Source: Dysgonomonas mossii DSM 22836 (GTDB lineage: Bacteria > Bacteroidota > Bacteroidia > Bacteroidales > Dysgonomonadaceae). From it: a stretch of 64,000 nucleotides of DNA. The position numbers were made by a program, and so were the translations under genes. Where the stretch lies: NCBI RefSeq assembly GCF_000213575.1, contig NZ_GL892007.1, forward strand, positions 124,001-188,000. The letters run 5' to 3'. Below, piece after piece: positions 21,585 to 51,822 of this stretch. How positions within the stretch are numbered: position 1 is the stretch's first letter; every line of letters begins with the position of its first letter. Under the pieces are notes generated by a model. That model ran no database searches and was not told where the DNA came from. It was given only the letters and a program-made list of their open reading frames with translations.

Positions 21585-21935
21585 TATAGAGACGAGGATT
21601 AAGCGTAGTAATTAGTTTCTTTTTTATAATTATAAACATGAAGTAAGTCTAGGATTTGCCCTAAAGAGACAGACAGTTTTATACTTCATTGTTATACTTT
21701 TACAAAAAACAAATACAGGTCAGTAGCATATGAGAAAAGCTAAATAAAGTTTCGATCATACTATATTCCACGTTATTTGATAAATGTTTTTATTTTACAA
21801 AGCCTGTTTCGGGAAATATATAGTGGAAAAACATTTGATGCCACTAAACTATTATACCCTTATGGGTGTTCTTTTAAGCATCTTTTTTGATAGTATTTAT
21901 AAACATAGTTTCCTCTTTTTAATACATTGTATACA
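21585..21935. other. Intergenic region before the hybrid histidine kinase
   Basis: This 351-bp AT-rich gap has no convincing ORF or consensus promoter. An 8-bp inverted repeat (ATGAAGTA at 21638-21645, TACTTCAT at 21682-21689) is the only structure seen and may be chance. Confidence 0.4.
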
Positions 21936-24686
21936 ATGGATATGAAGTATAGACAATATTCCAAGGATGAACTGATACAGCGCATAAAAGATCTGGAATA
22001 TGACAATTTTGCATTACAAAAAGAATTAATAAACAAATATGTAGGAAATGTATCGTATAGTAATACAGAGGAGACCAATGTTAATCTGTTACATGATAGA
22101 GAAAGAGCCTTTGAGATTTTACTAAAAACCTGCGATTCGCTTTTTTTATTCCGCTACGATGGTACTTGCGTAGATTGTATCATAAAATCAAATCACTGGT
22201 TTCTAAAATCTGAACAAATTGTAGGGCAGAATATTTTTGACATACTCCCCAAAGAAACGGCATTAAATTTTAAAGCTCATTTTGATGATGTTGTTGCAAA
22301 TGGGGGGACTTCAAGTCAGAACTACGACCTTCCTTTAAAAAGAAATACTATATACTTCAAGTGTATTATACAACTTTACGACAAGGAGTTTGTCCTTTGT
22401 CAATATCGCGATATAACTCAGCGCAGCCAGATGAAAAAGAGGTTAGATAACGCTAACCGAAAGTTAAAAGAAACACAAAAAATAGCAAAAATAGGACATT
22501 GGAAATATAATCCTCTAGTAGGTATGTTGTATTATTCCGGATTTGGGAATATATTCTCTATAGTGGAAGAAGAAGCAATTATATCTATTGATGAATATTC
22601 CTCTAAAATACACCCGGCCGACAAAGAAGCATTTATAGATTATTTGAATGGCAGGATTTACAACGGCAAATATCTGGACTATAGACGAGTTTACACGAAA
22701 GACAATTACTCTATTGTTTCTTATATAAGAACACAAATCACCAGTGTATACGAATATAAAGGGGAAACAATCATAGAAGGTTATGTACAAAACATAGACG
22801 ATGTTATAAAAAACCGTTGGGAATATGAAACAGTAAACTTCATGAATAATGTGACAAGCGATCATATTTTTGGAGTCTTTATGGAAGATGGTCAATTAAT
22901 TTTTGCCAATCAACAATTTCTACTTCACAACAATATATCGAAAGACAAGGATATTTCAGACTACAAAATAACAGAACTGAAGCAGCTTAGTTTAGAACAA
23001 TGGGACCTGATTCTAAAAAAACTAGAATCGAATGAAAGCTATAAGTATAACATAATTTATACAGATAGTGAAACTGAAAAAACGTCCTACTTTGATTGCA
23101 TCTCGTATTTAACAAGAGATACTTTCGGTACAAAATTTATATGGAGTTACTGGTCGAATACCACAAAGCAGAAGTATGCAGAGATTGAGAGCAAAAATAC
23201 TCGCAATCTCATGAATATGGTTTTAGATAATATGCCTATTTCTGTATTCATTAAAAACCCATTGAACGACTATAAATATATATATTGGAATAAAATATCG
23301 ACGCAATTCTATCTTGTTCAAAACGATGACTTTTCCGATAAAACGGACTTTGACATTTTCCCAAAAGAAGTGGCAGAAAGATATCGAGCTGAAGATATAG
23401 CAGTATTTGAGACTGGTGTTCCCCAAAGAGTATTTCAAGAATTTGTAGATGATGAAGGAAATATCCGATATGTAGATATTCTTAAAATACGATTAAATAG
23501 TGAAACTGATAATTCATCTCTAGTAATAGGTTTAGGCTGGGATATTACAGAACTTAAACAAATAGAAAAAGAGCTTACAACAGCAAAGTTGAAGGCAGAG
23601 CAGTTAGACAAATTAAAATCTGCATTTCTCTCTAATATGAGTCATGAAATACGTACACCTCTGAATGCAATATTGGGATTTTCTCGCATTATAGCAGAAA
23701 CTGATGATCAGGAAAAACGAAACTATTATTTTAATTTCGTCGAGTCCAACAGTGGACGGTTACTGGGTTTAGTAAATGAAATTCTTGACTTTTCGAAAAT
23801 AGAATCCGGCATTGTGGAGTTTGAACCAGAAGACTTTGATTTTGGGATGTTATGCTTGGAAATATATGAAACATATGCATCCCAATGCCATCCCGAAACA
23901 GAACTTATCTATAATAATATAGGAGCAGAGCTATGGATACGATCCGACAGAAACAGAATACATCAAGTTCTATCAAACCTGATTATTAATGCTCAGAAAT
24001 TTACAAAAAAAGGATATATAAAATATGGATTTGAGGTTATAGACAATAACGTCAAAGTTTATGTAAATGATAGCGGAATAGGAATAGTCGAGGATCAATT
24101 AGATAAAATATTCGAACGATTTATGCAAGTTGACAGCAATGCTATTGGAACCGGTTTGGGTTTAGCTATTTGTCGTTCCATCGTAGAACGTCTTGGTGGA
24201 GAAATATCCGTTACATCTGAATTGCAAAAAGGATCTTGCTTTACATTTACATTGCCATACGAACCGATAAGAAATTGGGAAGCAGAGGAAGGCAACTCCG
24301 AAAATTCGATCAAGCCTTATTCTTTCGAGCAGAATTGTACGATTTTAGTCGCCGATGATGATGACAATAGTTATCAACTGATAGACGCAATGATAGGAGA
24401 AGAGTATGCTTTGATACAGGGGCTAAATGGAATGGAGGCTGTAAGAATGTTTGAAGAGTATAATCCTGATATAATATTAATGGACTTAAATATGCCTACG
24501 CTTGATGGATTTGAAGCAACGAAAATCATCCGTCAAGTATCTCCGGACGTTATCATTATTGCGATCAGTGCTAAGGCTTATGAAAAAGACATAAAGAAAG
24601 CAATTGATTCTGGTTGCAATGAATTCCTAGCCAAACCAATCTGTAAAGATAAATTAATAGAAACTATTCATAAATATATCATTTAA
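21936..24686 (+). CDS. PAS-containing hybrid sensor histidine kinase / response regulator
   Basis: I take the ATG at 21936 (MDMKYRQYSK), giving 916 residues; a TTG three codons upstream also opens the frame. An N-terminal coiled coil precedes at least three PAS/PAC-like sensor modules (roughly 45-165, 180-290 and 430-550). The HisKA domain has SHEIRTPLNAILGF with His570. A HATPase domain follows with the N box (QVLSNLIINAQKF) and G boxes (DSGIG, GTGLGLAI). A C-terminal receiver has DLNMP with phosphoacceptor Asp850 and Lys in LAKPI. No transmembrane helix is evident, so it senses a cytoplasmic signal. The partner is unknown; the receiver-only protein at 29718-30080 is a candidate. Confidence 0.9.
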   Translation: MDMKYRQYSKDELIQRIKDLEYDNFALQKELINKYVGNVSYSNTEETNVNLLHDRERAFEILLKTCDSLFLFRYDGTCVDCIIKSNHWFLKSEQIVGQNIFDILPKETALNFKAHFDDVVANGGTSSQNYDLPLKRNTIYFKCIIQLYDKEFVLCQYRDITQRSQMKKRLDNANRKLKETQKIAKIGHWKYNPLVGMLYYSGFGNIFSIVEEEAIISIDEYSSKIHPADKEAFIDYLNGRIYNGKYLDYRRVYTKDNYSIVSYIRTQITSVYEYKGETIIEGYVQNIDDVIKNRWEYETVNFMNNVTSDHIFGVFMEDGQLIFANQQFLLHNNISKDKDISDYKITELKQLSLEQWDLILKKLESNESYKYNIIYTDSETEKTSYFDCISYLTRDTFGTKFIWSYWSNTTKQKYAEIESKNTRNLMNMVLDNMPISVFIKNPLNDYKYIYWNKISTQFYLVQNDDFSDKTDFDIFPKEVAERYRAEDIAVFETGVPQRVFQEFVDDEGNIRYVDILKIRLNSETDNSSLVIGLGWDITELKQIEKELTTAKLKAEQLDKLKSAFLSNMSHEIRTPLNAILGFSRIIAETDDQEKRNYYFNFVESNSGRLLGLVNEILDFSKIESGIVEFEPEDFDFGMLCLEIYETYASQCHPETELIYNNIGAELWIRSDRNRIHQVLSNLIINAQKFTKKGYIKYGFEVIDNNVKVYVNDSGIGIVEDQLDKIFERFMQVDSNAIGTGLGLAICRSIVERLGGEISVTSELQKGSCFTFTLPYEPIRNWEAEEGNSENSIKPYSFEQNCTILVADDDDNSYQLIDAMIGEEYALIQGLNGMEAVRMFEEYNPDIILMDLNMPTLDGFEATKIIRQVSPDVIIIAISAKAYEKDIKKAIDSGCNEFLAKPICKDKLIETIHKYII

Positions 24687-24702: not shown

Positions 24703-25758
24703 ATGGGAAAAGTTGCTGCAATAAAATTAGTAAACTTTTATATTGTCATTTTTAGTCTACTAATTGCAGGTACTACAATTATAGGTGTCCTCTCTCCATT
24801 CTTTGACCCTAGAGATTATAGTATTATTCCTTTTATAGGACTAATATTACCGATAATTTTAATTCTCAACATCGTAAGTTGTATATATTTACTTGTTACT
24901 AAAAGATTTATTGTTGCATCTATTATTGCCATTACATTTTGTATAGGCTTTCTAGGAGCGGGCTACAAACTGCCCAAATCGTCCAAAACAATAGATTCTG
25001 TAGGAAAAAACATACGGGTAATGACCTTTAATATAAGTCAAAACAATGCTGGCAATAATAACTATGATGATTTGCAAGCAATAGTCGAGTTTGCAAAAAC
25101 AGAAAATGTAGATATTTTTTGTATTCAAGAATACCCGGACAACAATGAGGTTGGAGACTCATTGAGAAAATGCCTCAGCTTCCTACCATATTATACTTTT
25201 CCCGAAAATGTAAAAGGTTATTTAAAAGTGGCAATATTCTCTCGTTACCCAATACAAAACATAAAGCAAATGCTGTTCAAAAACAGCTACAATAGCGCTA
25301 TTACAACAGACCTGTTAATTGAAAACAAAACCATACGGCTTATTTGTGCTCATTTGCAAACAACAAACTTCAATCAAAAAAGAATAGGCTCGATATGGAA
25401 CACTCCAAGCTCACTTTATAAGACGATTAGCAAAATGAATGTAAATCAAAGAATACGGGCATCTCAGGCTGATCTTATACGGGAGGAAATTCGTTTGAGT
25501 ACAACACCAGTTATATTTTGTGGAGATATGAATGATACACCAACCTCTTATACGTACAAAACTATAAAAAAAGATCTACAGGATGGATTTGAAGAATGTG
25601 GTAATGGTATTGGGCATACTTACAAAGGATTATTCAGTGTCCTACGAATTGATTATATCTTATATTCAAAAGAAATTTCAGGAATAAAGTATGAATCACC
25701 TAAAAAGGTATATAGTGACCATAATCCAGTTATCATGGATTTAGTATTAAACTATTGA
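24703..25758 (+). CDS. Membrane-anchored endonuclease/exonuclease/phosphatase-family protein
   Basis: The 351-residue protein has three N-terminal hydrophobic helices (about 8-88) followed by an EEP-fold domain. Catalytic signatures are present: VRVMTFNIS-type start (IRVMTFNISQNN), the metal-binding Glu in FCIQEYP, CGDMNDTP (Asp/Asn pair), RIDYILYS and the terminal YSDHNPV (catalytic His). The fold hydrolyses phosphodiesters or phosphomonoesters in nucleic acids or lipids; the substrate is unknown. The domain probably faces the periplasm. The gene follows the hybrid kinase by 16 bp and overlaps the convergent kinase gene by 7 bp. Confidence 0.85.
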   Translation: MGKVAAIKLVNFYIVIFSLLIAGTTIIGVLSPFFDPRDYSIIPFIGLILPIILILNIVSCIYLLVTKRFIVASIIAITFCIGFLGAGYKLPKSSKTIDSVGKNIRVMTFNISQNNAGNNNYDDLQAIVEFAKTENVDIFCIQEYPDNNEVGDSLRKCLSFLPYYTFPENVKGYLKVAIFSRYPIQNIKQMLFKNSYNSAITTDLLIENKTIRLICAHLQTTNFNQKRIGSIWNTPSSLYKTISKMNVNQRIRASQADLIREEIRLSTTPVIFCGDMNDTPTSYTYKTIKKDLQDGFEECGNGIGHTYKGLFSVLRIDYILYSKEISGIKYESPKKVYSDHNPVIMDLVLNY

Positions 25759-26885
25759 TTAGTTATTTCTTTGGGAAGAGAAAAGAAAAATATAGACCCC
25801 ACTCCCTCTTTAGATTCAAACCATAATCTTCCATTGTTTTTTTGGACAAATTCCATTGTCAACAACAGCCCCAAACCTGAGCCTTCTTCCTGAGCTGTTC
25901 CATAACTTGTATAATGAGTGCCGACATTTAATAGTTTTTGCTGATTCACCTCACTTATACCACATCCGTTATCAGAGACAGAGACAATATACTCTTCATC
26001 AGACTCTTTTATTTCTACTTTAATCAATCCTCCTTCATAACTAAACTTAATGGCATTGCTGATTAAGTTGCGCATACAACTTTTCAACATATCTATATCT
26101 GAAAAAACATTAGCGGATTCAATATCTGTATGAAATTCTACTTTGATATTCTTAATACTGGCAACATTCATAAAAACATCTGTAGTCCCTTTTACAATAG
26201 GCACAAGATCTACGCTTTGAGGAATAGCTAATTGCTTACCAATCTGCAGCTTGGTCCATTTCAGTAAATTATCGAGCAAGGAAAATATATCTTCTGTTGT
26301 TTTATTAGCAAGTTTCAATAGCTCATATATAGACGGGTCTACTTTATCTTTGTCAACATCATGCATTATTGAATTCATTATCATCATCATCGATGCCATT
26401 GGCGAACGTAGATCATGTGCTATTACCGAATACATTTTGTCCCTATCTAAAATTGTCTTCTTAAGCACATGGGTTCGTTTTACAATAATACGTTTAGCAG
26501 CAAGTAATGAGAGTTGATGAACTATACGAGCCATTAATTCCTCCTTATTAAAAGGCTTTGTTATATAATCACTTCCTCCTAATCTAAACCCTTTGACAAT
26601 ACTGTCAACATCATTCATCGCCGTTAAAAATATGACAGGAATCTCTCTATATAATGAATATTTTTTAACCTCTCTTATCACTTCAAAACCATCCATATTA
26701 GGCATATTGATATCCAAAAGAATAAGATCGGGCACATCCTTCCTAATTATTTCAATAGCAGCTTGCCCGTCATTTGCTGTAACAACGTTGAATCCTTCCT
26801 TATCCAATAACACTTGAAGAAGTAATACATTTGTCATTACATCATCTACCACTAATATTGTATAATCGGAATGATTTATTTTCAT
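25752..26885 (-). CDS. Receiver-histidine kinase hybrid protein
   Basis: The 377-residue soluble protein begins with a receiver domain (DD at 14-15, phosphoacceptor Asp58 in LLDINMP, Lys110 in TKPF). A short helix leads to a HisKA domain with His157 in VIAHDLRSPM. A complete HATPase domain follows (SCMRNLISNAIKF, DNGCG, GSGLGLLL). This REC-first order is typical of kinases switched by phosphorylation of their own receiver and used as intermediate relay proteins. It is convergent with, and overlaps by 7 bp, the EEP gene. Confidence 0.9.
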   Translation of the reverse strand: MKINHSDYTILVVDDVMTNVLLLQVLLDKEGFNVVTANDGQAAIEIIRKDVPDLILLDINMPNMDGFEVIREVKKYSLYREIPVIFLTAMNDVDSIVKGFRLGGSDYITKPFNKEELMARIVHQLSLLAAKRIIVKRTHVLKKTILDRDKMYSVIAHDLRSPMASMMMIMNSIMHDVDKDKVDPSIYELLKLANKTTEDIFSLLDNLLKWTKLQIGKQLAIPQSVDLVPIVKGTTDVFMNVASIKNIKVEFHTDIESANVFSDIDMLKSCMRNLISNAIKFSYEGGLIKVEIKESDEEYIVSVSDNGCGISEVNQQKLLNVGTHYTSYGTAQEEGSGLGLLLTMEFVQKNNGRLWFESKEGVGSIFFFSLPKEITNQ

Positions 26886-27256
26886 TTTAAATAATTAGGA
26901 GTTAGTTTTAATAAAAAAATTATTGGATATTAGGTAAAACAAACAAGTGCCTATGAAGTTCACGAAACAGCGCATTTTTAAAAGAAAAAGTACATATATA
27001 CACAGTATAGAGAGGGAAGGCATCAAATGCTAAATTATCTAAAAGAGTCATAATGTGTTAATTTTTTCTATTAATGAACTTGAGAGTATTTATTTTTGTT
27101 ATAGCTATGGTTTCAAGACATTTCAATAATATTTTTGGAAATAAATAACTAATAATAAAGAAAATATATATACTTTTACTCAGTTTTTTAGAAAACCATT
27201 TATACTATATATAGTTTATATTGAGGACAATCAGAAAACCCCTTTTTTATTTAATT
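26886..27256. other. Intergenic region between a kinase gene and the LruC-domain gene
   Basis: The 371-bp region separates divergent genes. A TATTTTTG at 27091-27098 fits the -7 consensus for the forward gene with only a T-run at -33. No ORF or RNA family was recognised. Confidence 0.4.
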
Positions 27257-29596
27257 ATGAAAATCAAATTTGCGTATACAGCATTGCTGTTCATAGCTTT
27301 ACTAACTAGTTGCAGCGAACAAGATTATTATGACCCTAATTCTCAGGTAATACCGGATGAATTGTCAGACTTAACCGTTCCATCAGGTTTTGACTGGACT
27401 ACAAGTTCCAATATTAGTCTCAATTTGGATGTGAACGATCAATACGATGGTTTATATTATTACCAATTAGAAGTTTTTAATCAAAACCCTATCATTTCAC
27501 CAAATGCATCCCTTTTGGCAAAAGGCCTAGCGAAAAAAAACGAACCGTTTAAAGCTAAGGTTACATATGCTAAGTCGGATAGCATCTTGTATATCCAAGA
27601 AACAGACCCAACCGGAAAAATGTCAGTAAGAGCACTTTATACCTCAAATGCTTTAAAATCGGCAAGTGTAGCAACACTAAAATCAGGCTCAACTAAAAGT
27701 TTAGATATAAACTATACTGCGCCAACAAGAACATATACAACACCATCTAATGCAACCGTTATATCGGGGGCATCATACAACATCAGCTATTCAAGTAATC
27801 AATATGTGATACCCGCAGGGCAAACATTTGAAGGTCAAATAAACAATGGCTCATGGTACGATGCATACGTATATGTGGAAGGAACATGGAAAAATACTTC
27901 AACTAATACAGAGCTGAATAATTTAAAAATAATTATTCAAGATGGAGGAAAATATATTCCAACACAAACTTCATCAAACATAAAAGCGAATGGTTCGGCC
28001 AAAATAGTTGTAGCTACAACAGGGCAATTCAATCCAGATAAAAAAGAGGTTAATGTGGATATGAATAATGAAAATGGACAAATAGTAAACAACAGTACTG
28101 TATTCAACATCAATAATATTTCGAATATAAGAAGTTTGTTTAATTATGGTACAATGTCTTCATCAGGTACATTATCTGCAAATACAAGTAATGTACAGGT
28201 TGTAAACGAGAGTTCTTTGACAGTTCAAAACTTGTCTATAAACAATAATGCAAATCTTATCAATAAAGACCAATTTACGGTTAATGGTAATACATTTTTA
28301 CAGAACTCAATAATCAATAATAATGCAGCGTTTACAACTCAAAATATAACTGTTAATGATGCTACAATTGAAAATGGATGTAAATTTATCATTGCAGATA
28401 AAGGAACTTTCCAGGGCACGACATTAAATACAGCTGCTGAAACATTGTTAATAAGTAACATTTTAGATCTTCAGAGTAATAATAAAATAAACCTTGGGTC
28501 TCATGCTATAATGAATGTTACAAATGAACTAAAGTTTAGCAATACAGGAACCAGTATCAATGGTCCAGCATCAGGCAATAAAGCGTTGGTAAAATTAGAA
28601 AAATTCTCAATCACAGAATGGAGACACCCTGCATTTACAGGTTATTTAGAAATAGAATCATCGAACTATCCTGCTAACTCAGGTTCTACAGGATATGACG
28701 TTCCTTCTGATACAAAATATGTTAACTTTGTAAGAAAAGGAGAGTCTACTGTTGATATTGAAGCAACAAGCTGCAACGAAGGAGGAAATGTTGTTCAAAG
28801 AGGTGGTCCTGGCATTATAACATATCCAATAAGTGCAACATTAGGAACAACTTATACTTATGCATTTGAAGATAATTACCCAAGTATAGGGGACTATGAT
28901 ATGAATGATTTTGTACTGGATATAGATCTAGGATTTACATTGTCTGCAGCTAATAAAGTTTCAAAAATAGACATTCAAAGTAAAGTAAGAGCTGTTGGTG
29001 CTACAAAAAGACTTGCTGCTGCTATTCAGCTAGACGGCGTATTGAAAGGTAATATTAAAAGTATAACAAACTCAAACACGAGCTTCAGTGGCGACGTTTT
29101 CTCTATGAGTAATGGTTTGGAAAACGACCAAGATTATGCAGTTATTCCACTTACAGATAATGCTCATGCACTATTTGGGGCTACCACTTCTCAAATAATA
29201 AATACGAAAGCAGGAGAAAACCATCTTCCGGCTAAAGCTATCACTATCAGCATATTATTCAACGATCCTATAGACATTTCTACTGTTTCTTTAATTGATA
29301 TGCTAAACGTATTCATTGTGAACGGAGGCTATAATACATCTAATAGAAAAGAAGTTCATTTAAGGAATTATGCAGCAACAAAAAAATCGACAGATGTATC
29401 TTCTGGAAGAAACTATAGTACATCCGACTTAGTATATGGAATAAGAGTTCCTCTATCGTTTAAATATCCGTTAGAGTGGGTTCGAATAATTGATGCATAT
29501 CCTCAATTTAAATCATGGGTATCCTCAAATGGACTAAATTATCCTAATTGGTATCAAGCTTACGAAACAAATAAAGTATATTTATTAGAACAATAG
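27257..29596 (+). CDS. LruC-domain lipoprotein with an Asn-rich beta-solenoid
   Basis: I choose ATG 27257 over the TTG at 27221 because it places a clean lipoprotein signal at the N-terminus (lipobox LLTSC, Cys19), giving about 779 residues. Residues near 190-480 are an Asn/Thr-rich series of short strands (INNISNIRSLFNYG, NESSLTVQNLSINN and similar) expected to form a beta-solenoid. The C-terminal part has the LruC-domain hallmark YAFEDNYPSIGDYDMNDFV. LruC-domain proteins are surface or secreted proteins with no defined role. It lies directly before the exopolysaccharide operon. Confidence 0.82.
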   Translation: MKIKFAYTALLFIALLTSCSEQDYYDPNSQVIPDELSDLTVPSGFDWTTSSNISLNLDVNDQYDGLYYYQLEVFNQNPIISPNASLLAKGLAKKNEPFKAKVTYAKSDSILYIQETDPTGKMSVRALYTSNALKSASVATLKSGSTKSLDINYTAPTRTYTTPSNATVISGASYNISYSSNQYVIPAGQTFEGQINNGSWYDAYVYVEGTWKNTSTNTELNNLKIIIQDGGKYIPTQTSSNIKANGSAKIVVATTGQFNPDKKEVNVDMNNENGQIVNNSTVFNINNISNIRSLFNYGTMSSSGTLSANTSNVQVVNESSLTVQNLSINNNANLINKDQFTVNGNTFLQNSIINNNAAFTTQNITVNDATIENGCKFIIADKGTFQGTTLNTAAETLLISNILDLQSNNKINLGSHAIMNVTNELKFSNTGTSINGPASGNKALVKLEKFSITEWRHPAFTGYLEIESSNYPANSGSTGYDVPSDTKYVNFVRKGESTVDIEATSCNEGGNVVQRGGPGIITYPISATLGTTYTYAFEDNYPSIGDYDMNDFVLDIDLGFTLSAANKVSKIDIQSKVRAVGATKRLAAAIQLDGVLKGNIKSITNSNTSFSGDVFSMSNGLENDQDYAVIPLTDNAHALFGATTSQIINTKAGENHLPAKAITISILFNDPIDISTVSLIDMLNVFIVNGGYNTSNRKEVHLRNYAATKKSTDVSSGRNYSTSDLVYGIRVPLSFKYPLEWVRIIDAYPQFKSWVSSNGLNYPNWYQAYETNKVYLLEQ

Positions 29597-29717: not shown

Positions 29718-30080
29718 ATGCAAAGAATATTAATTATTGATGATAAAGAAGCTATAGCCAAAGTTATAGCTAACTATTTTAGAGAAGACTATGAATGTAT
29801 TTATTTTGAGAATCCATTAAAAGCAATTCAATGGTTGGAGCAAAATTCGATGCCGGATTTGATTATTCTAGATTTAAGAATGCCTTTCATGACTGGAGAA
29901 GAGTTCCTAGCTTATATCAAAAAAAATGAACTTTTTAAGTCTATCCCTGTAGTTATCCTTTCTAGTGAGGATAACAGTATAAATCGAATTCGATTATTAG
30001 AAAATGGAGCTGAAGATTTTATTTTGAAACCCTTTAACCCGATGGAGTTAAAAGTTAGACTAAAAAAAATTCTTAAATGA
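29718..30080 (+). CDS. Stand-alone response-regulator receiver
   Basis: The 120-residue CheY-like protein has every catalytic residue: DD at 9-10, phosphoacceptor Asp53 in LDLRMP, Ser in LSSED and Lys in LKPFNP. It has no output domain. Its stop overlaps the start of the next gene by 4 bp (ATGA), so its synthesis is coupled to that of the initiating sugar transferase, which itself carries a degenerate receiver. It therefore probably reports a kinase signal to polysaccharide synthesis by protein-protein contact; that role is inference. Confidence 0.92.
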   Translation: MQRILIIDDKEAIAKVIANYFREDYECIYFENPLKAIQWLEQNSMPDLIILDLRMPFMTGEEFLAYIKKNELFKSIPVVILSSEDNSINRIRLLENGAEDFILKPFNPMELKVRLKKILK

Positions 30081-31228
30081 CTTTTATTATATATATAGGT
30101 AGTAATAAAGAATATATCAATCATTTTCAAGAATTATTACAAGAAAATATAGTTATAGTCAAAAATAAAGAAGAGGCTGGTATTATATTGAAAGAATTAC
30201 CCTCAAATAAAATCCAGCCTCTTTTATATGAAAAAATTAACCCTGATGTAGATAAAGTTAATATTGCATACCTGAAAAAGAAATTCAAAAACCTATATAT
30301 AATTCTTGTTACCAAAAAAATAGGAAAAGAAGAAACAAGTATATATATAGAAGCTGGTGCTAATAATACTATTTCTCCGGATGCCGATTCTGATGTATTT
30401 AAAGCAATCACTAATTTTATATCTAAAAATGAAATTCTAAGTAAAAAGGAAAAAAAAGAACAGAATAAAATTGATGAAGTATTTACAATACCTAAAGGCA
30501 AACGGATATTTGATATAATTATTTCACTTTCAGCTCTTATAGCTCTATCTCCGTTTTTGATTTTAATAATGGTCTTAATTAAGCTTGAAAGTAGAGGACC
30601 TATTTTATATAAGTCGAAAAGAGTTGGGAGCAACTTTTATATCTTTAATTTCTGGAAATTCCGATCTATGTATATAGATGCAGAGGAGCGACTATCGAGC
30701 TATCGATCAATGAATCAATACACAAAAGAGTCAAAAGAAAAAACGTTAGAAGTAAACACAGCAAAGGCTGATATTATAAATGATGACATTGTGCTGGTTT
30801 CAGACGATTATGAAATATCAGAACATGAATATCTAAATAAGAAAAAAGAGAAAAAAGATACAACTTTTTTTAAAATAGCACACGACCCCAGAGTCACAAA
30901 AATGGGTAGATTTATGAGAAAATATAGTATCGACGAAATCCCCCAATTAATAAATATATTAAAAGGAGACATGTCAATAGTGGGTAATAGGCCCTTGCCT
31001 CTTTATGAAGCAGAGCTATTGACTGGAGATGAATATATTGAACGGTTTATAGCTCCGGCAGGATTGACCGGGCTATGGCAAGTTGAAAGACGTGGAGGAG
31101 AAGGTAAAATGTCAGCAGAAGAAAGAAAACAGCTTGACATATATTATGCTCACAATTATTCCATATGGCTTGATTGCAAAATTATTTTTAAAACATTTTT
31201 CTCATTTATACAAAAAGAAGATGCTTAA
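30077..31228 (+). CDS. Pseudo-receiver fused to initiating undecaprenyl-phosphate sugar transferase
   Basis: The 383-residue protein has a receiver-like N-terminal domain (about 1-120) lacking the chemistry. The acidic pair is replaced by GSN (8-10), the phosphoacceptor by Glu52 (LLYEKINP) and the conserved Lys by Ser (TISPDAD). From about residue 140 a bacterial sugar transferase domain follows. It has KRIFDIIISLSALIALSPF (membrane segment), KFRSM, a Bacteroidetes-type insert of some 60 residues, DPRVTKMGRFMRKYSIDEIP, VGNRPLP and the C-terminal LTGLWQV. Such enzymes attach the first sugar-phosphate to undecaprenyl phosphate at the inner membrane. A hairpin covers its stop codon. Confidence 0.88.
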   Translation: MTFIIYIGSNKEYINHFQELLQENIVIVKNKEEAGIILKELPSNKIQPLLYEKINPDVDKVNIAYLKKKFKNLYIILVTKKIGKEETSIYIEAGANNTISPDADSDVFKAITNFISKNEILSKKEKKEQNKIDEVFTIPKGKRIFDIIISLSALIALSPFLILIMVLIKLESRGPILYKSKRVGSNFYIFNFWKFRSMYIDAEERLSSYRSMNQYTKESKEKTLEVNTAKADIINDDIVLVSDDYEISEHEYLNKKKEKKDTTFFKIAHDPRVTKMGRFMRKYSIDEIPQLINILKGDMSIVGNRPLPLYEAELLTGDEYIERFIAPAGLTGLWQVERRGGEGKMSAEERKQLDIYYAHNYSIWLDCKIIFKTFFSFIQKEDA

Positions 31229-31260: not shown

Positions 31261-31992
31261 ATGAAACTAAAACTAATCATCATTACGTTTTTCCTATCCT
31301 CTTGTAATATTTATCTGTTAGCTCAAGATATAACAGAGTTAAAACCTAAAGATTATCTAGACTTTCAGTTACCTCCGATATCTGTTCTATACGAAAACGC
31401 TAAAGCTAGCCCTATTCTCAGCTATTATGAGAAAAAAAAGCAGGGACATAAAAGTTTGATAGATTCCGAGAAAAAAAGATGGTTGAGTTTCATCAAATTA
31501 GTCACTAATTATCAATATGGGGTAGTAGGTAACAATACAACTTTTTCAGATACAAACACCCCAATATTCTATCAATATTCAGGAAATAAACAGAGTTGGT
31601 ACAACTTTGGAGCTTCAGTATCTATACCATTAGATGACATTTTTGATAGAAAGAATAGGGTAAGAAAACAAAGGTTGGATATGGAGGCGACTGAGTTTGA
31701 ACAAGAGAAATGGTATGATGAACAAAAAATCCGTATAGCAGCAATGTATAGTCTCGCAATGAAAGACTTAGCATTAATAAAAATTAAATCAGAAGCCTTA
31801 CTCTTTGCAGAGGCTCAATTAAATCTAAGCGAAACAGACTTTATTAATGGTAATATCACTATCCAAGAACTCGGGAAACAAAAATCTGTATATACAACAG
31901 CTGTATCCGACTATGAAGAAACCAAAGCAAGTTTAAACTCCTCTCTACTTCAGCTTGAGATATTGGCAAAAACTCAAATCATATCTAAATAA
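31261..31992 (+). CDS. Short TolC-family outer-membrane protein
   Basis: The 243-residue protein has a signal sequence (MKLKLIIITFFLSSCNIYLLAQ). Its long amphipathic helices and the SVSIPLDDIFDRKNRVRKQR motif are typical of one TolC repeat. TolC proteins normally have two such repeats (over 400 residues); this one has one. Short TolC-like proteins occur in Bacteroidetes exopolysaccharide loci, perhaps as an export component. The helix-loop pattern supports the fold, and the export role is inferred from its position just before the co-polymerase. Confidence 0.72.
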   Translation: MKLKLIIITFFLSSCNIYLLAQDITELKPKDYLDFQLPPISVLYENAKASPILSYYEKKKQGHKSLIDSEKKRWLSFIKLVTNYQYGVVGNNTTFSDTNTPIFYQYSGNKQSWYNFGASVSIPLDDIFDRKNRVRKQRLDMEATEFEQEKWYDEQKIRIAAMYSLAMKDLALIKIKSEALLFAEAQLNLSETDFINGNITIQELGKQKSVYTTAVSDYEETKASLNSSLLQLEILAKTQIISK

Positions 31993-31998
31993 AATAAT

Positions 31999-34122
31999 AT
32001 GCAACAAATAAGGTGTATATATACGTTTATCAATAAAATAAAATGGTGGTTATTGATTGTACCGTTGCTAATATCAGGTTTAGTTATCTTATCTACAAGA
32101 CATCTTAACCTCGAATATACTGTAGAAACTACAGTTTTCACTGGTGTTGTCTCCAGCTATGGATTAGATTCCGAACAGCCGACGACCCAAAACTGGAATA
32201 TATTAAATAACACTTTAGAAAATATTATAAATATTGTAACCTCTAAAGAGACATTGAAAGATGTTGCACTCCGGCTGTATGTGCAAGATATGATATATGG
32301 TGATTCGGAAAAAGATAATATTTACATCAAAGCATCCAATTACAGGAAACTCTTAAATATAACGCCAAAAGAAGTTCAGGCTCTTATAGATAAGAAATCA
32401 GAGGAGAAAACACTCGAGAATATTCTGGCTTATGAAAAGTCCGATCCTAAGAATTTTATATATGGATTATTAAATTGGCATCATCCACACTATAGCTATG
32501 AGGCCTTAAGCAAAATCTCTGTAAAAAAACTAGGCAACAGTGATATGCTAGAAATAACATATACAGCTAATGATCCGGGCATAGCATACAATACTTTGGT
32601 AATACTCAATCAATCATATGAAAAAAAGTATCAAGATATCCAGTTCGGAACAACCAATAATGTCATTCATCACCTTGAAAAAGAGCTAGCTAAAGTGAGT
32701 TCAGAACTTAGAAATGGAGAAGATTCTTTAACAAACTATAATATTGAAAATCGCGTCATCAACTACGACGAACAAACAAAACAGGTAGCAGCATACGATA
32801 AGGATGTCCAATTGATATATCAGGATGCATTGCTTAGACATAGTAGTTCTAAGGCATTAATTACTCATCTAGAAAGTAAGATATCGGAAAACTTAGCATC
32901 AATAAAAAACAACTCTGAGTTTATTTCCAAACTCAATACTATATCTCAATTACGCAGTAAAATTGCCGAGATAGAACCATTCTACAAAGACTCTCTAGTT
33001 AGTCCCGCAAATCAAAGACAAATTAATAAGTATAAAGCCGATCTTAAGACTGCAGAGGGTGATCTTCATGTAATTATGAATACATTGAGTAATCAAAAAT
33101 ATACCAAGGATGGTTACCCGACATCCAATTTCGTATCCCAATGGCTTGATGAAGTATTAAAAAATGAAAAAGCTTCTGCAGAACTTGCTGTTTTAGATAG
33201 AAGACGAGCCGAATTGGATCAGGAATACCTTCACTTCTCGCCAATAGGTTCTACAATAAAACGGAAAGAAAGAAGTATTGATTTTCTTGAACGTTCTTAT
33301 TTATCAATTTTATCAAGCCTTAATACGGCCCGATTAAGATTAAAAAGCTTAGAAATGAACTCCGCTTCATTGAAAGTACTCAATGAGCCTACATTTCCAC
33401 TATTATCAAAACCTACAAAAAGAAAAGCTATAGTTTTAGGTTCTTATGTAGCTAGTGTTATATTTATAATCGGTTTATTCTTATTAAAAGAATTATTTGA
33501 TAGAAGGTTATTAGATAAAATGCGAACTGAACACATTACTTTAGGTAAAGTTTTAGGAGTATTTCCAGAAGAAGGTAAATTGGGTAAAAGAATTTTTAGA
33601 AAATCTTATGAAGAAACCTGTATACTACTATTAGGTAATAACTTATTAAATTACTTTGCATCTGAAAAACCTAGTATAATAAACGTCTTCAGTATTTCAA
33701 ATGGAGTTCAAAAAACATATATAGCAAATGCTTTATCGGATTATTGGAAACGCATAGGTTTATCTGTAAAAAATATTGATTGGACGAAAGATTTCTCGAA
33801 CTCTTCAAAAAGCTATCTGTTGATCAACAAATTATCAGATATCAATATAGATATAATTAACAATGACGTTGTGATTGTTGAATATCCTTCAATAAAAGAG
33901 AATCCAATACCTAAAAACTTATTACAAACCGCTTCTTTTAATTTGATATTACTCGACGCAAAAAAACAATGGAAAGGTAGCGATCAGTTAATTTTTGATG
34001 AGATAACAAGACTTTCAAAAGATGTTCCGATTATGATTCTATTAACAAATGTAAGCCATGCTGTAGTAGAAAATATAACAGGAATAAAACCGCTAAAAAA
34101 GGATATCGAAGCCAATAATTAA
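31999..34122 (+). CDS. Wzz/Wzc-like polysaccharide co-polymerase with degenerate kinase domain
   Basis: The 707-residue protein has two transmembrane helices (about 16-32 and 473-497) bracketing a long coiled-coil periplasmic Wzz/GumC-type region. The cytoplasmic tail (about 515-707) has the shape of a BY-kinase. Walker A is reduced to SNGVQKTYIAN, the Walker A' Asp run becomes NIDWTKDF, and Walker B reads VVIVEYPS. No C-terminal tyrosine cluster exists. It should set chain length and bridge to export but cannot autophosphorylate. It follows the TolC-like gene by 6 bp. Confidence 0.83.
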   Translation: MQQIRCIYTFINKIKWWLLIVPLLISGLVILSTRHLNLEYTVETTVFTGVVSSYGLDSEQPTTQNWNILNNTLENIINIVTSKETLKDVALRLYVQDMIYGDSEKDNIYIKASNYRKLLNITPKEVQALIDKKSEEKTLENILAYEKSDPKNFIYGLLNWHHPHYSYEALSKISVKKLGNSDMLEITYTANDPGIAYNTLVILNQSYEKKYQDIQFGTTNNVIHHLEKELAKVSSELRNGEDSLTNYNIENRVINYDEQTKQVAAYDKDVQLIYQDALLRHSSSKALITHLESKISENLASIKNNSEFISKLNTISQLRSKIAEIEPFYKDSLVSPANQRQINKYKADLKTAEGDLHVIMNTLSNQKYTKDGYPTSNFVSQWLDEVLKNEKASAELAVLDRRRAELDQEYLHFSPIGSTIKRKERSIDFLERSYLSILSSLNTARLRLKSLEMNSASLKVLNEPTFPLLSKPTKRKAIVLGSYVASVIFIIGLFLLKELFDRRLLDKMRTEHITLGKVLGVFPEEGKLGKRIFRKSYEETCILLLGNNLLNYFASEKPSIINVFSISNGVQKTYIANALSDYWKRIGLSVKNIDWTKDFSNSSKSYLLINKLSDINIDIINNDVVIVEYPSIKENPIPKNLLQTASFNLILLDAKKQWKGSDQLIFDEITRLSKDVPIMILLTNVSHAVVENITGIKPLKKDIEANN

Positions 34123-35641: not shown

Positions 35642-36532
35642 ATGAATGATGTATATATATCTATAGTAAGCGTTAACTACAATGGGATGAATGATACATG
35701 CCATATGATAGATAGCTTAATGCAATATCTATCTGAAGTATCGTATGAAATCATTATAGTGGATAATGCTTCTTTAAAAGATGAAATTACTGAGATACAA
35801 GCAAAATATAGAAACATACATTGTATAAGAAGTAATTCAAACTTAGGTTTTGCAGGAGGCAATAATTTGGGTATAATCGAGGCTAAAGGAAAATATGTCT
35901 TATTATTGAATAATGATACATATATTAAAGATAATTCATTATTAAGTCTCGCAGAATTTTTAGATTCAAACGCAACAGTAGGAGCAGTTTCTCCTAAAAT
36001 AAAATTTGCAGACTCCAACACTATTCAGTTTGCAGGCTATACAGATTTATCTCAAGTCACATTGAGAAATAGCCTTATAGGTTTTGGTGAGCCTGATCTT
36101 GGGCAATATGATACACCAGCCAAATCTCCATTCCTTCATGGAGCTGCGATGATGCTTAGGCGAGATATTATAAAAAAAGTAGGTCTAATGCCGGAAATAT
36201 ATTTTTTATATTACGAAGAGTTAGACTGGTGCGAACAAATAAAAAAAAATGGATTTGAATTGTGGTATAATCCTCAGGCTGTAGTATTTCATAAAGAAAG
36301 TCGGAGCGTAGGACAAAATAGTCCTTTGCGATGTTATTATATGACACGCAACAGATTACTCTATGCATGGAGGAACAGAAGAGGAATAATTCGATTAGTG
36401 GCTATACTATATCAATTTCTTATCGCCAATCCTAAAGGTATATTTACCTACACATTGAATGGACGTCTCGATCTAGTTAGAGCTTCTATAAGGGGAATGA
36501 TTAATTTTACTAATATGAAAAAAACTTTATGA
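35642..36532 (+). CDS. GT2 glycosyltransferase (rhamnosyltransferase-like)
   Basis: The 296-residue GT-A enzyme starts VYISIVSVNYNGMNDT. It has the nucleotide-binding pocket IIIVDNAS, the metal motif as LLNND (DXD variant), FLHGAAMMLRR, and the acceptor-side YYEELDWCEQIK. The GT2 subgroup with GFAGGNNLG and EELDW patterns often adds rhamnose. The donor is not determinable. Its stop overlaps the next start by 4 bp. Confidence 0.85.
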   Translation: MNDVYISIVSVNYNGMNDTCHMIDSLMQYLSEVSYEIIIVDNASLKDEITEIQAKYRNIHCIRSNSNLGFAGGNNLGIIEAKGKYVLLLNNDTYIKDNSLLSLAEFLDSNATVGAVSPKIKFADSNTIQFAGYTDLSQVTLRNSLIGFGEPDLGQYDTPAKSPFLHGAAMMLRRDIIKKVGLMPEIYFLYYEELDWCEQIKKNGFELWYNPQAVVFHKESRSVGQNSPLRCYYMTRNRLLYAWRNRRGIIRLVAILYQFLIANPKGIFTYTLNGRLDLVRASIRGMINFTNMKKTL

Positions 36533-37680
36533 TCCTCGTTAATATAGTTGATTCAATATTATTTGTATTGATGTTATTTTCTGTTTTGTATCTTCTTATT
36601 TTTGCAATAGCTTCGCTAAATAAGAAAAAGATACATTACCCTGAAACAGACAATAAACTCAAATATGTTATTCTTTTTCCGGCATACAAAGAAGATAAGG
36701 TTATAATATCATCCGTAAAATCCTTCCTTGCGCAAGATTATCCTAAAAGTTATTTCGATGTTGTTGTTATCTCGGATCAGCTAAAAGATGAAACAAACGA
36801 AGAACTTTCACAATTGCCTATTAACCTGCTTATTGCAAATTACGAAGACAGTACAAAAGCAAAAGCTTTAATTTTTGCTCTTGACAATTTAAGTAAAGAT
36901 GATTATGATGTTGTAGCAATAATAGATGCGGACAATACGGTAAGTACTAATTTTTTGAATGAAATAAATAAAGCATTTTTCTTTGGTATAAGAGCCCTAC
37001 AGGTTCACCGCATAGCAAAAAATCCGGAGACAGACATGGCCATCTTAGATGCCGCGAGCGAAGAGATAAACAATTCTTTTTTCAGAAGCGGGCATATACG
37101 GTTAGGCTTATCTTCTGCTCTTAGTGGATCAGGGATGGCATTCGAATACAAATGGTTTAAAAAGAATATTAAAAACATATCTTCTGTAGGAGAAGACAAA
37201 GAATTGGAGCTACAATTATTACGACAGGGTATATATATTGATTATCTGGAAGATGTATTTGTATATGATCAGAAAGTACAGAATCAACAAGTCTTTTATA
37301 ATCAACGACGACGATGGATGGCTTCTCAATACGAAAATTTGGCAAAAGGAATAAAATATATTTCAGAAGCATTGAGAACAGGAAATATCGATTTATTTAA
37401 TAAACTTATACAATGGGCTATGCTCCCTCGATTGATTTTATTGGGATTAATATTCGTTCTTGCGGTTCTATTTTTGTTTATTAATATATTTTGGTCTATA
37501 AAATGGTGGATATTGCTAATGTTTATGTGCTTATCTCTAGCCATTGCTATCCCGGATGAAATGGTTAATGAGCGTTTGATTAAAATACTCAGAAAATTAC
37601 CTAAGCTTTTTATTTTAATGGTTATTAATCTATTCAGAATGAAAGGCGCGAAAAAGAAATTTATACACACAGAACATTGA
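36529..37680 (+). CDS. Membrane-bound GT2 glycosyltransferase (processive-type motifs)
   Basis: The 383-residue protein has an N-terminal helix (about 5-28), a GT-A domain and C-terminal membrane helices (about 293-345). The DXD motif is IIDADNT. GEDKELELQLL stands for the TED motif, and QRRRWMASQ is the QxxRW signature of cellulose/hyaluronan-type synthases. It could make a glycan chain directly or add a single residue to lipid-linked sugar. It is co-translated with the preceding gene by a 4-bp overlap. Confidence 0.83.
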   Translation: MILVNIVDSILFVLMLFSVLYLLIFAIASLNKKKIHYPETDNKLKYVILFPAYKEDKVIISSVKSFLAQDYPKSYFDVVVISDQLKDETNEELSQLPINLLIANYEDSTKAKALIFALDNLSKDDYDVVAIIDADNTVSTNFLNEINKAFFFGIRALQVHRIAKNPETDMAILDAASEEINNSFFRSGHIRLGLSSALSGSGMAFEYKWFKKNIKNISSVGEDKELELQLLRQGIYIDYLEDVFVYDQKVQNQQVFYNQRRRWMASQYENLAKGIKYISEALRTGNIDLFNKLIQWAMLPRLILLGLIFVLAVLFLFINIFWSIKWWILLMFMCLSLAIAIPDEMVNERLIKILRKLPKLFILMVINLFRMKGAKKKFIHTEH

Positions 37681-37695
37681 CATTAAGAATAGTAA

Positions 37696-38805
37696 ATGAA
37701 GATTGCAATTGAAGCACAACGTATATTTCGAAAGAAGAAACATGGAATGGATATTGTCATTCTAGAAGCTTTGAAGGAAATACAAAGACAAGATACGTCT
37801 AATGAGTATTATATATTCGTAGCACCGGGGCCTGACAAGTGTTTAGAAAAAACCGCAAATTTTCATATAATAGAAGTAAAATGTCCGTCCTATATATTAT
37901 GGGAGCAAATAGGACTGCCTCGTTCTATATCTAAAATAAAACCCGATGTGCTGCACTGTACAAGTAATACTGCACCTCTGTTTGTAAATGTACCGTTGAT
38001 AGTAACATTACATGATATAATATTTTTAGAAAAGAAACAAAGCTCGAATAAGTCTCTATACCAAAATTTAGGGCGCATATATAGAAAACTTATTGTACCT
38101 CGAATATTATCTAAAAGCAAGAAAATCATCACCGTATCAGATTTTGAACGCGAAAATATTTGTAAAAAGACAAATACGCCATCATCTAAGGTAGTCACTA
38201 TTCACAATGGATATAATAAGCGATTTCATTATATACCAAACTATCATAATGTTACAAACAAATATATAGAAGATGACAACTATATTTTATTCTTTGGGAA
38301 TACAGATCCTAAAAAAAATACTTTGCGAACAATAAAAGCTTATGCTCTATATCTCGAGAAATCCGATTATAAAAGACCTTTATTGATTTTAGATATTAAT
38401 AAATCTATTATTGAAGAAATTCTCAAGAAGGAAAATATAGAGCACATAAAACCTTTTGTACACTGTCCAGGGTATATAAATAATTCAGATCTACCATATA
38501 TATACAATGGAGCATTTGTTTTCATTTACCCATCATTGAGAGAAAGTTTTGGACTACCAATACTGGAGTCGATGGGCTGCGGAACCCCTGTTATTGTATC
38601 CAATACCTCGGCTATCCCCGAAGTAGCAGGTGAGGGAGCTTTATACACAGATCCATATAACGAACAAGATATTGCTAATAAGCTGCTACTTATCGAGAAT
38701 GATAAAGAAATGTATCAAAAATTAGTTGAATACGGAAGAGTGAGAGTTAATTCGTTTTCGTGGGAAAATACAGCAAGAGAATTATTAAATGAATATAAAT
38801 CATAA
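37696..38805 (+). CDS. GT4 glycosyltransferase
   Basis: The 369-residue GT-B fold enzyme has the family pattern [20 protein letters not shown] (with a Gly-poor donor loop), [11 protein letters not shown] and IVTLHDIIF. The C-terminal nucleotide-sugar motif is [21 protein letters not shown] (E-x7-E). It is probably retaining and peripheral on the inner membrane. Donor unknown. It starts 15 bp after the previous gene. Confidence 0.88.
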
Positions 38806-38807
38806 GA

Positions 38808-39434
38808 ATGAATATATCTCTTTTAAAAGAAAAATTTAAAAAAAATAGAACGATCAAGAGTTTTATTATAAAATTAATATCTCCATCATTGAATCCCAGA
38901 CCTCGATTATGGGTTCGTTTATTAGTAAACCCATGGGTTCACAAAAAAGGTAAGGGGTGTAAAATAAGACAAAGGAGGTCTAGAATAGATGTATTCCCTT
39001 GGAATAAATTCAATGTAGGCGACAATGTGTTAATCGAAGACTTCACAACCATTAATAATGGAGCTGGAGATGTAATAATAGGTAATAACTCGCGTATAGG
39101 AATTGGTTCTGTAATCATTGGACCTGTAACTCTTGGAAATAAAGTCGGATTGGGACAACATGTTTTTATTGCCGGATTTAATCATGGATATGCCGATGCC
39201 TCTATAGACTCTAATGAACAAGATTTAGTTAAGAGTACAGTAATTATCGAAGACGAATCTCATATCGGTTCAAATTCTGTAATATTAGCTGGAGTTCATA
39301 TTGGTATACGTGTACAAATCGGGGCAGGAAGCGTTGTAACAAAAGATATACCGTCATACTGTGTAGCCGTAGGAAATCCCGCACGAGTTATAAAAAAATT
39401 TGATTTTCAAAAAAAAGAATGGGTAAGGATGTAA
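38808..39434 (+). CDS. Left-handed beta-helix acyltransferase
   Basis: The 208-residue protein has hexapeptide repeats typical of the LbetaH/WcaF-type family. Examples are [49 protein letters not shown] and [20 protein letters not shown]. The substrate-site His lies near FNHGYAD. It probably acetylates a sugar of the repeat unit using acetyl-CoA. Its 3' end overlaps the next gene by 16 bp. Confidence 0.86.
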
Positions 39435-40375
39435 TTAAGCCAAAAGTAAGTGTTATCATACCTGTTTATAATACAGGAAAATATGTAGAAGAATCGGTTC
39501 GTTCAATTATAAATCAAACGCTACCTGAATTAGAAATTATAATTATTAATGATGGATCTACGGATAACAGTTTGCAAGTAATAACTCTATTACAAGACAT
39601 TGACAAGCGTATATTTATTCATTCTCAAGAGAATCAAGGGCTGTCATCTGCTCGAAATCAAGGACTAAATTATGCCAATGGAGAATATATCTATTTTATG
39701 GATAGTGATGATATACTGGATACAAACGCATTAAAAGTCTGTTATGAAAGATGTGTATCAGAAGAACTTGATTTCGTTTTTTTTGATGCAATAACATTTA
39801 CAGATAGCAATATACAAGCACCAATATCTTATAATAGAAAAGAGAAGATTACAAGTGAAATTAAAACCGGATTACAAAGTTTAAACACATTGCTCGAGAC
39901 TTCAGGCTATAGATCTTCGGTTTGTCTTCTATTTATAAAACATAATTATATAACTTCTTTATCCTTAAATTTTCTACAAGGAATAATACATGAGGATCAA
40001 CTATTTACAGCAAAGTTGTACACTCAGGCACAAAGAGTAGCGTATATCCCTGAAGCATTCTTTCACAGACGATTTCGCCCCGATTCAATTATGACTAAAC
40101 AATATACGATCTTTAATGTTAAAAACTATTTTATAGTCGTAGATGAACTTATAAAATTTGCATCCGGGCAAAATGAAATTATAAAAAAAACAATAAATAA
40201 AACTATTCGGTTCTTTTTTGATCCTGCTATATATATGGCCAATATATTTAGATGGTACGAACGCTTTAGTATTGCCAAGACTTGCTTTCTTCGCTATCGT
40301 AAATATATATCAGTTAAGTCATGGCTCGTCCTTCTTTTTCCTTGGCTAATAAAACTAAAATCATATATAAAATAA
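39419..40375 (+). CDS. GT2 glycosyltransferase
   Basis: The 318-residue GT-A enzyme opens [20 protein letters not shown]. It has [11 protein letters not shown] (donor pocket), [11 protein letters not shown] (DXD as DSD) and the acceptor-side [12 protein letters not shown]. It resembles the WaaV/EpsJ-type branch of the family. The product and linkage are unknown. The start ([11 protein letters not shown]) overlaps the acyltransferase end by 16 bp. Confidence 0.87.
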
Positions 40376-40387
40376 TAATTAATCCAA

Positions 40388-42942: not shown

Positions 42943-42963
42943 ACGATTTGAATTATTGTTTTT

Positions 42964-47307: not shown

Positions 47308-47792
47308 GAACAATTATTAAAATCCTATTCCTATCAATTATTAGTATAATAACATCTATATCATTTACTTCTTGTAGTAATGATAACGATGGAGATACAA
47401 CTCCACCTGCGATCAATCTAACTGCTCCGGCAGAAGGTGCTGTATTAAAGATTGGATCAGATATTCATTTCGACATGGAATTATCCGACAATGAAATGTT
47501 ATCTTCCTATAAAGTAGAGATACATAACAACTTCGATGGTCATAACCATACAAAATCGTTAAAAGCCGAAGATGGTACTACCGCATTTGCTTTTCAGAAA
47601 ACATGGAGTGTAGCCGGACAAAAAACAGCAAAAATACATCATCATGAAATAATCATACCGGAAAATGCAACCCCTGGTAATTATCACTTGATGGTATATT
47701 GTACAGACGCCGCCGGGAACGAATCGTATGTTGCACGTAATATTGTATTAAGTCACGACGGAGAAGATGATGACCATGATCATGATCACTAG
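47304..47792 (+). CDS. DUF4625 lipoprotein with His-rich tail
   Basis: The 162-residue lipoprotein has lipobox FTSC (Cys24). Residues 35-150 form a DUF4625-type beta-sandwich (PAINLTAPAEGAVL through AGNESYVARNIVL). His residues occur in the core (HNNFDGHNHTK and KIHHHEII) and an Asp/His tail HDGEDDDHDHDH closes the protein. These would hold divalent metals at the cell surface. It is the last gene of the TonB-receptor cluster and is followed by a strong terminator. Confidence 0.83.
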   Translation: MRTIIKILFLSIISIITSISFTSCSNDNDGDTTPPAINLTAPAEGAVLKIGSDIHFDMELSDNEMLSSYKVEIHNNFDGHNHTKSLKAEDGTTAFAFQKTWSVAGQKTAKIHHHEIIIPENATPGNYHLMVYCTDAAGNESYVARNIVLSHDGEDDDHDHDH

Positions 47793-50597: not shown

Positions 50598-50608
50598 GAT
50601 TAAAATAT

Positions 50609-51754: not shown

Positions 51755-51791
51755 TGATTTATATTTTAATTATTTTTCTATTTGCATGAAT

Positions 51792-51799
51792 CAAAAATA
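51792..51799 (-). promoter_or_regulatory. Candidate -7 box for the GH130-GH78 pair
   Basis: Reverse-strand TATTTTTG fits TAnnTTTG, about 40 bp before the GH130 start, with a CTTTTTAAG stretch at the -33 distance. Confidence 0.45.
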
Positions 51800-51822
51800 T
51801 GAGATTTACATACGCTTAAAAA

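Follow-up and report, generated by a model that had tools for sequence, protein, structure and literature searches.

A Stand-Alone Receiver Paired with a Degenerate Receiver-Phosphoglycosyl Transferase Fusion as a Candidate Switch on Polysaccharide Initiation in Bacteroidota

The first step of polysaccharide synthesis commits a scarce lipid carrier, and control of this step by a response regulator has been reported only recently, in a myxobacterium. According to the available text of that report, phosphorylated EpsW of Myxococcus xanthus stimulates the initiating phosphoglycosyl transferase (PGT) EpsZ post-translationally (PMC12802240, mBio 2025). The same text cites O'Toole 2021 (PNAS) for receiver domains in small monotopic PGTs (monoPGTs). 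Large monoPGTs of the WbaP type also place an N-terminal regulatory domain before the same kind of catalytic domain as in the protein studied here; in the accessible portion of that work, this domain is a DUF (PF13727) with a transmembrane bundle, and no receiver or single-domain response regulator is described (PMC10942596). The pseudo-receiver of FrzS is stated, in the available text, to work through its output face without Asp phosphorylation (PMC1974792).

Here we describe a locus within a 64,000-nucleotide stretch of Dysgonomonas mossii DSM 22836 (contig NZ_GL892007.1, positions 124,001 to 188,000), which we call the window. In it, a gene for an intact single-domain response regulator (SDRR) directly precedes a gene for a small PGT whose N-terminus is a degenerate receiver, or pREC (pREC-PGT). 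As far as the EpsW-EpsZ report is accessible, the two systems share an intact single-domain response regulator and a PGT that starts a Wzx/Wzy exopolysaccharide. EpsZ, however, belongs to the large monoPGTs and contains a four-helix bundle and a DUF, whereas the window PGT is small and has a dead receiver of its own; here, unlike in EpsW-EpsZ, the genes for SDRR and PGT adjoin or share bases, and the window system is known from sequence alone. The small monoPGTs of O'Toole 2021, to judge from that citation, have the fused receiver in common with the window protein, whose own pREC lies below Pfam detection. FrzS, in its available text, resembles pREC in having a receiver fold without a working phospho-Asp, output-face action being a feature of FrzS, but it controls the polar localization of a motility protein and is not fused to a polysaccharide-synthesis enzyme, unlike pREC.

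By analogy, the SDRR/pREC-PGT pair is most likely the Bacteroidota counterpart of EpsW-EpsZ. EpsW orthology is not indicated by NCBIfam NF041866, against which the SDRR scores 55.8 bits (cut-off 200). Judging by the accessible text of PMC12802240, it is already known that an SDRR can control a large PGT and that receiver domains occur in some small monoPGTs, and EpsW-EpsZ is a counterexample to the statement in the original prediction that a receiver-regulated initiating transferase had yet to be described. As far as the open-licence literature shows, three things are new: the fused receiver is consistently degenerate, it is nearly always paired with an intact SDRR, and the arrangement extends across the phylum; in that literature, which includes few subscription papers, we found no report of an SDRR/pseudo-receiver-PGT pair. 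If the reading proposed below is true, a live/dead receiver pair would represent a control mechanism of general use in a phylum that is of central importance for polysaccharide biology in the gut and the sea. The pair also offers a compact, testable system for pseudo-receiver function.

The Transferase and Its Two Receivers

The stop codon of the SDRR gene and the start codon of the pREC-PGT gene share four bases (ATGA; Table 1). With D8, D9, D52, S82, and K104 intact and no output domain, the first protein is a single-domain response regulator, and among the 23 receivers above cut-off in the genome, it is the only stand-alone receiver frame. When compared with 39 other receivers, SDRRs (leaving aside L005, L060, L063, and L149) specifically conserve S87, R90, I91, N107, and P108 in α4 and β5-α5, and elsewhere W39, a G and an N at 43-44, F63, and F73.

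Residues 142-378 of the second protein match Bac_transf (PF02397) with an E value of 3.3e-60 (203.1 bits, cut-off 27), which identifies a monoPGT. The re-entrant-helix residues S158 and P159 are, like D286 and E287, invariant in all seven aligned homologues; we take this Ser-Pro and the Asp-Glu dyad to be monotopic PGT motifs, and the catalytic role of D286-E287 is our assignment from PglC. A large monoPGT of the WbaP/EpsZ type is not indicated, as the N-terminus is modelled as a receiver and the protein has 383 residues in total. Its scores are also below the NCBIfam cut-offs for TIGR03025 (245.7 vs 295.55) and the EpsZ model (154.1 vs 800). The genome encodes three PF02397 proteins, and the remaining two frames, at 459 and 482 residues, are of large-PGT size. 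The catalytic domain spreads 237 residues over 178 model positions, corresponding to an insertion of ∼59 residues before the DE motif; judged by eye, this insertion is also found in homologues with and without the dead receiver.

Table 1. Features of the locus, with positions in the window
Feature	Position	Strand	Basis or remark
Hybrid kinase PAS-HisKA-HATPase-REC, candidate phosphodonor	21927..24686	+	neighbourhood comparison
REC-HisKA-HATPase receiver-histidine kinase, candidate phosphodonor	25752..26885	-	Pfam
LruC/DUF4842 protein	27221..29596	+	Pfam/neighbourhood comparison
Stand-alone (single-domain) receiver, SDRR	29718..30080	+	120 aa; PF00072 E 2e-25
pREC-PGT, dead receiver plus small monotopic PGT	30077..31228	+	383 aa
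pREC domain (predicted), residues 1-134	30077..30478	+	profile comparison, AlphaFold, Foldseek
Tyr6-Ile7-Gly8, conserved Y-[IV]-G around the lost acidic pair	30092..30100	+	homologue alignment
Glu52 codon (GAA), phospho-Asp site, end of β3	30230..30232	+	alignment, AlphaFold model
pREC strands and helices (predicted), β1 to β3			residues: β1 3-7, α1 11-24, β2 25-28, α2 31-40, β3 46-52
pREC strands and helices (predicted), α3 to α5			residues: α3 56-69, β4 75-78, α4 84-93, β5 97-99, α5 104-134
PGT catalytic domain, PF02397	30500..31210	+	Pfam, residues 142-378
Asp286-Glu287, presumed catalytic dyad	30932..30937	+	invariant, 7 aligned homologues
TolC-like outer-membrane factor (OEP)	31261..31992	+	Pfam
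Chain-length (Wzz/PCP-like) protein	31999..34122	+	weak NCBIfam matches below cut-off
Wzy-type polymerase/O-antigen ligase, PF04932	34137..35621	+	Pfam
Glycosyltransferases, hexapeptide-repeat transferase, Wzx flippase (40388-41827, PF13440)	35642..44160	+	Pfam

Sequence profiles and structural models support a receiver fold for the first ∼118 residues of pREC-PGT. The window's own pREC, run singly, gives no Pfam receiver match, and its identification accounts for a domain that Pfam misses in this protein. Aligning 29 N-termini with 26 SDRRs in hhalign gave a probability of 96.5 and an E value of 7.1e-10, co-linear across 120 columns. A profile of 43 pREC N-termini reached PDB receivers at about 1e-15, and the narrower 29-member profile matched the PDB weakly, with one match below 0.001 (a response regulator, 0.00079). 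PF00072 itself is matched by 31 of the 43 members at E<=0.01, the window's member not being among them. AlphaFold2 modelling of residues 1-135 returned alternating strands and helices, with a best pLDDT of 89.3, a pTM of 0.79, and a range of 73.0-89.3 over five models. The 21 rows of the underlying alignment were the window pREC, L005, and receivers of the window, of L005, and of viral contigs; because this alignment consisted of receivers, the model supports the fold and is no independent proof of it. When searched against the PDB with Foldseek, it gave 50 listed matches, all of them receivers or receiver-bearing regulators, with TM-scores to the query of 0.57-0.77. The predicted α5 is long and runs toward the catalytic domain in this model. 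Single-sequence AlphaFold of the whole pREC-PGT gave a pLDDT of 34.9 and no usable model.

At the five positions that make up the phosphorylation site, the window pREC reads G-S-E-T-P and the upstream SDRR D-D-D-S-K, so that the Asp pair has been replaced by G8-S9, the phospho-Asp by Glu52, and the Lys by Pro, with the Thr retained. The alignment thus agrees with the original prediction, which had placed a receiver fold at the N-terminus (as the structure prediction of residues 1-135 also does), read the acidic pair and the Lys as gone, and found Glu52 at the phospho-Asp site. The window pREC is not a phosphorylatable receiver by this measure, and no homologue is complete: a full set, scored as a β1 Asp or Glu together with the Asp, Ser/Thr, and Lys, is present in 0/93 homologous pRECs (the phospho-site column being gapped in three of them) vs 88/94 neighbouring SDRRs, where six of the 94 precede PGTs without a pREC domain and the odd sequences L060 and L063 appear truncated or misread. 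Because the alignment is loose at β5, its Lys column is the least certain of the site columns. Both receivers look degenerate in L005. In L123 and L130, which belong to one family, Glu replaces the phospho-Asp even in the SDRR.

Glu occupies the phospho-Asp site in 63 of the 74 pRECs from the window's order, with Ser, Asp, Asn, Gln, or Ala in the remaining 11, and in 3 of the 18 from outside it (L068, which is cut, is in neither group). Over 133 columns in the 74 same-order pRECs, Y6 ranks first in conservation, G8 second, and E52 fifth, so that the site residues do not vary at random (random variation would have spoken against the original prediction); across all 93 pRECs, E52 ranks 12th. Gly8 is found in 75 of 76 aligned rows, one of which (L005) lies outside the window's order. 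Apart from Y6, G8, and E52, the domain drifts fast: the window and L014 are 29% identical in pREC vs 68% in the SDRR. In two distant pRECs (L109 and L113), Glu is at the site and a β1 Asp, Ser, and Lys are retained. Since Glu is conserved in the window's order and not beyond it, phosphomimicry is not the general function of these domains, and what the pREC group has in common is lost phosphorylation and not Glu.

Pairing of the SDRR with pREC-PGT

An SDRR is encoded directly upstream of 88 of 91 pREC-PGTs vs 6 of 24 bare small PGTs. The 91 are those of the 93 pREC-PGTs for which the sequence reaches 250 bp or more upstream, and the 88/91 is made up of 86/89 proteins of the pREC class and 2/2 with an N-terminus below the pREC model (L119 and L130), taking in L005, with its degenerate upstream receiver, and gaps of up to 240 bp (L123). 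Counting was restricted to proteins that contain the letters NRP, identical C-termini entered once, and 20 neighbourhoods that repeat the same genes were excluded; the NRP filter left out L099_2562 (a pREC-PGT with an SDRR, gap 47), L148 (a bare PGT), large PGTs, and distant matches. The four-base overlap of the window, a gap of -4, is seen in 20/86 pairs. One scored exception, L066, has a sequence that stops 272 bp upstream; in the other two, L088 and L122, no SDRR was found upstream of the pREC-PGT. A histidine-kinase-like frame lies directly upstream in L122, and there is no ATG, GTG, or TTG at the expected pREC start.

The six bare PGTs with an adjoining SDRR include L118, L120, and L121, from one family, and L054, from the window's order. 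Receiver-bearing frames lie farther upstream of the SDRR and bare PGT in the first three, with kinase motifs in L118 only. In genomes holding both kinds of PGT, the SDRR is beside 0/10 bare copies with enough upstream sequence (L137-L139 and L141-L147), and the large PGTs that were fetched have no SDRR upstream, as judged with a narrower receiver model. No frame longer than 471 aa is among the profile matches that align to the N-terminal domain, and thus no single chain with both receivers was found in this set.

Co-occurrence within the family gives the same picture. Among 101 same-family genomes, pREC-PGT is present in 14, and the SDRR (E<=1.6e-50) is present in 13 of those and in none besides; in the 14th (G026), the contig starts 60 bases ahead of the gene. 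The next matches of the SDRR search are receivers within frames of 963-1385 aa, with E values of 8.7e-34 or weaker. In four genomes with two modules (G395, G458, G637, and G734), each of the eight pREC-PGTs is accompanied by a separate SDRR. G395 and G458 share one clearly corresponding module (93% in the SDRR, 86% in the N-terminus), and their second putative pair, at 69% and 54%, is no closer than paralogues (64-70% and 49-54%). A partial mirror-tree correlation of SDRR with pREC given the catalytic domain is 0.35 over 85 pairs (500 permutations, maximum 0.13), and the value for SDRR with the catalytic domain, 0.41, is no lower, so the pairing does not point to pREC in particular; the 85 pairs exclude L005, L060, L063, L068, and partnerless rows.

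The original prediction had called for a search for the same fusion in other Bacteroidales, and it is indeed found there, in the 74 same-order pRECs, with others beyond the order. The PGT profile has matches in 66/393 same-order and 31/395 phylum-sampled genomes, counts that were made at different E-value limits and include PGTs without a receiver domain. Four loci came from a scan of genome contigs, with a pREC domain in one (L005), and four from viral contigs, where the match is confined to the catalytic part. On the PGT tree, which is rooted at its midpoint only, the fusion may have been either gained or lost.

A Proposed Switch and Its Alternatives

We propose, with a probability of about 0.5, that the SDRR and pREC-PGT form one post-translational switch, working by docking, on the first step of a Wzx/Wzy polysaccharide. 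Lacking an output domain and being the sole stand-alone receiver frame found in the genome, the SDRR would, on the simplest reading, exert its effect by binding the product of the adjacent gene. It would be phosphorylated by a histidine kinase, for which the two encoded 3-8 kb upstream are candidates; SDRR~P would then dock on pREC-PGT, most simply via the α4-β5-α5 face, to form a live/dead pair with pREC, and the signal would travel along the long α5 helix to the membrane-embedded transferase and switch initiation, with activation likelier than inhibition. Unphosphorylatable itself, pREC would serve as a docking or relay element and not as a phosphate sensor. The near-constant adjacency of an intact switch protein in relatives suggests direct on-off control of polysaccharide production by a signalling pathway. 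A docking surface for the upstream receiver was one of two roles offered in the original prediction, and the 88/91 pairing and the family co-occurrence speak in its favour, docking being what we infer from them. The SDRR-specific residues on α4 and β5-α5 and the co-divergence of SDRR and pREC (0.35) also fit it. Against it, other SDRR-specific residues fall elsewhere; Y6, G8, and E52, which are among the best conserved positions of pREC, lie at the former active site and not on the output face; no SDRR was found upstream in L088 and L122; the SDRR is altered in L005, L123, and L130; and kinases are not regular neighbours.

A wider reading, which we hold only tentatively, is that a heteromeric receiver switch gates a class of exported polysaccharides across Bacteroidota, in which a live SDRR would be phosphorylated by a kinase and a dead PGT-fused receiver kept as its dedicated docking or relay subunit. 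The pREC site has been lost in different ways: by Y-[IV]-G plus Glu in one order, with Glu and the other residues kept in L109 and L113, and elsewhere with Asn, Ser, Gln, Tyr, or Asp at the site. That phosphorylation was lost by several routes would, on this reading, mean that the dead partner is retained as a docking or relay subunit.

The SDRR could instead act directly on the catalytic domain, with pREC a fixed structural part in, for example, dimerization or membrane positioning. We consider this less likely, although six bare PGTs with an adjoining SDRR leave room for action on the catalytic domain in place of pREC or in addition to it, and the co-divergence of the SDRR with the catalytic domain is as strong as that with pREC. 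EpsZ, moreover, contains no receiver, and the available text places EpsW, by modelling, on its DUF and its catalytic domain (PMC12802240). The difference between 88/91 and 6/24, on the other hand, ties the two receivers to each other. The same pairing is left unexplained if pREC is a ligand-sensing pseudo-receiver for a nucleotide, sugar nucleotide, or second messenger. This alternative, which we regard as improbable, draws on the modelled clustering of the conserved Y6, G8, and E52 at the edge of the old active site and on two precedents in the accessible parts of their sources, the binding of c-di-GMP by REC1 of ShkA (PMC7010744) and the proposal that the WbaP DUF is a UMP sensor (PMC10942596). 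c-di-GMP is an unlikely ligand for pREC because GGDEF has no match anywhere in the genome at E<=0.001.

We give little credence to the idea, also part of the original prediction, that Glu52 mimics phosphorylation and locks pREC and the enzyme in one state. The frequency of Glu within the order (63/74) and its rank of 5/133 are in keeping with it, and it is possible in L109 and L113, where Glu is combined with the β1 Asp, Ser, and Lys. An acyl-phosphate mimic, however, normally acts through the Asp pair and Lys, and these are gone in nearly all pRECs; moreover, 11/74 same-order pRECs have no Glu, and only 3/18 outside the order have it. Equally doubtful is that the SDRR and pREC-PGT are mere neighbours in a conserved operon, the SDRR regulating another target. 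The surrounding cluster keeps its order in many relatives, so linkage alone is no proof of a shared function, but the SDRR stays with the PGT even where the next genes differ (no OEP match after the PGT in L161, L171, and L172), each module of the two-module genomes has an SDRR of its own, the SDRR is absent from family genomes without the PGT, and the window genome has no other stand-alone receiver.

Genomic Setting

The PGT is placed at the start of a Wzx/Wzy pathway because the cluster downstream of its gene holds OEP, chain-length, Wzy, glycosyltransferase, hexapeptide-repeat transferase, and Wzx genes (Table 1). Pfam gives no match to the chain-length protein at E<=1. Inspected by eye, its C-terminal part is BY-kinase-like with a degenerate Walker motif, and the protein is possibly a pseudokinase like EcpK of Myxococcus.

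Both candidate kinases are encoded upstream, together with the LruC/DUF4842 protein and an Exo_endo_phos protein. Three same-genus neighbourhoods and L163 have close homologues of the receiver-histidine kinase near the locus, and L168 and L173 have weaker matches. We also considered a kinase as a regular neighbour of the pair and set this aside: a rough motif scan found kinase-like frames in 6/99 loci (L049, L051, L054, L093, L118, and L122), where most loci hold 1-2 kb of upstream sequence and the window's own kinases lie beyond that reach. Of 20 related neighbourhoods, 7 (L154-L156 and L158-L161) have the LruC/DUF4842 gene upstream of the SDRR, and L163 has it downstream; its product is possibly a matrix protein made with the polysaccharide.

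Genes for polysaccharide use adjoin the polysaccharide-making cluster. These encode an α-L-rhamnosidase, a GH130 phosphorylase, and a GH92 protein (47934-54204, minus strand), and a TonB receptor (45148-47307) is also beside the cluster, as is a DUF4625 protein (47304-47792).
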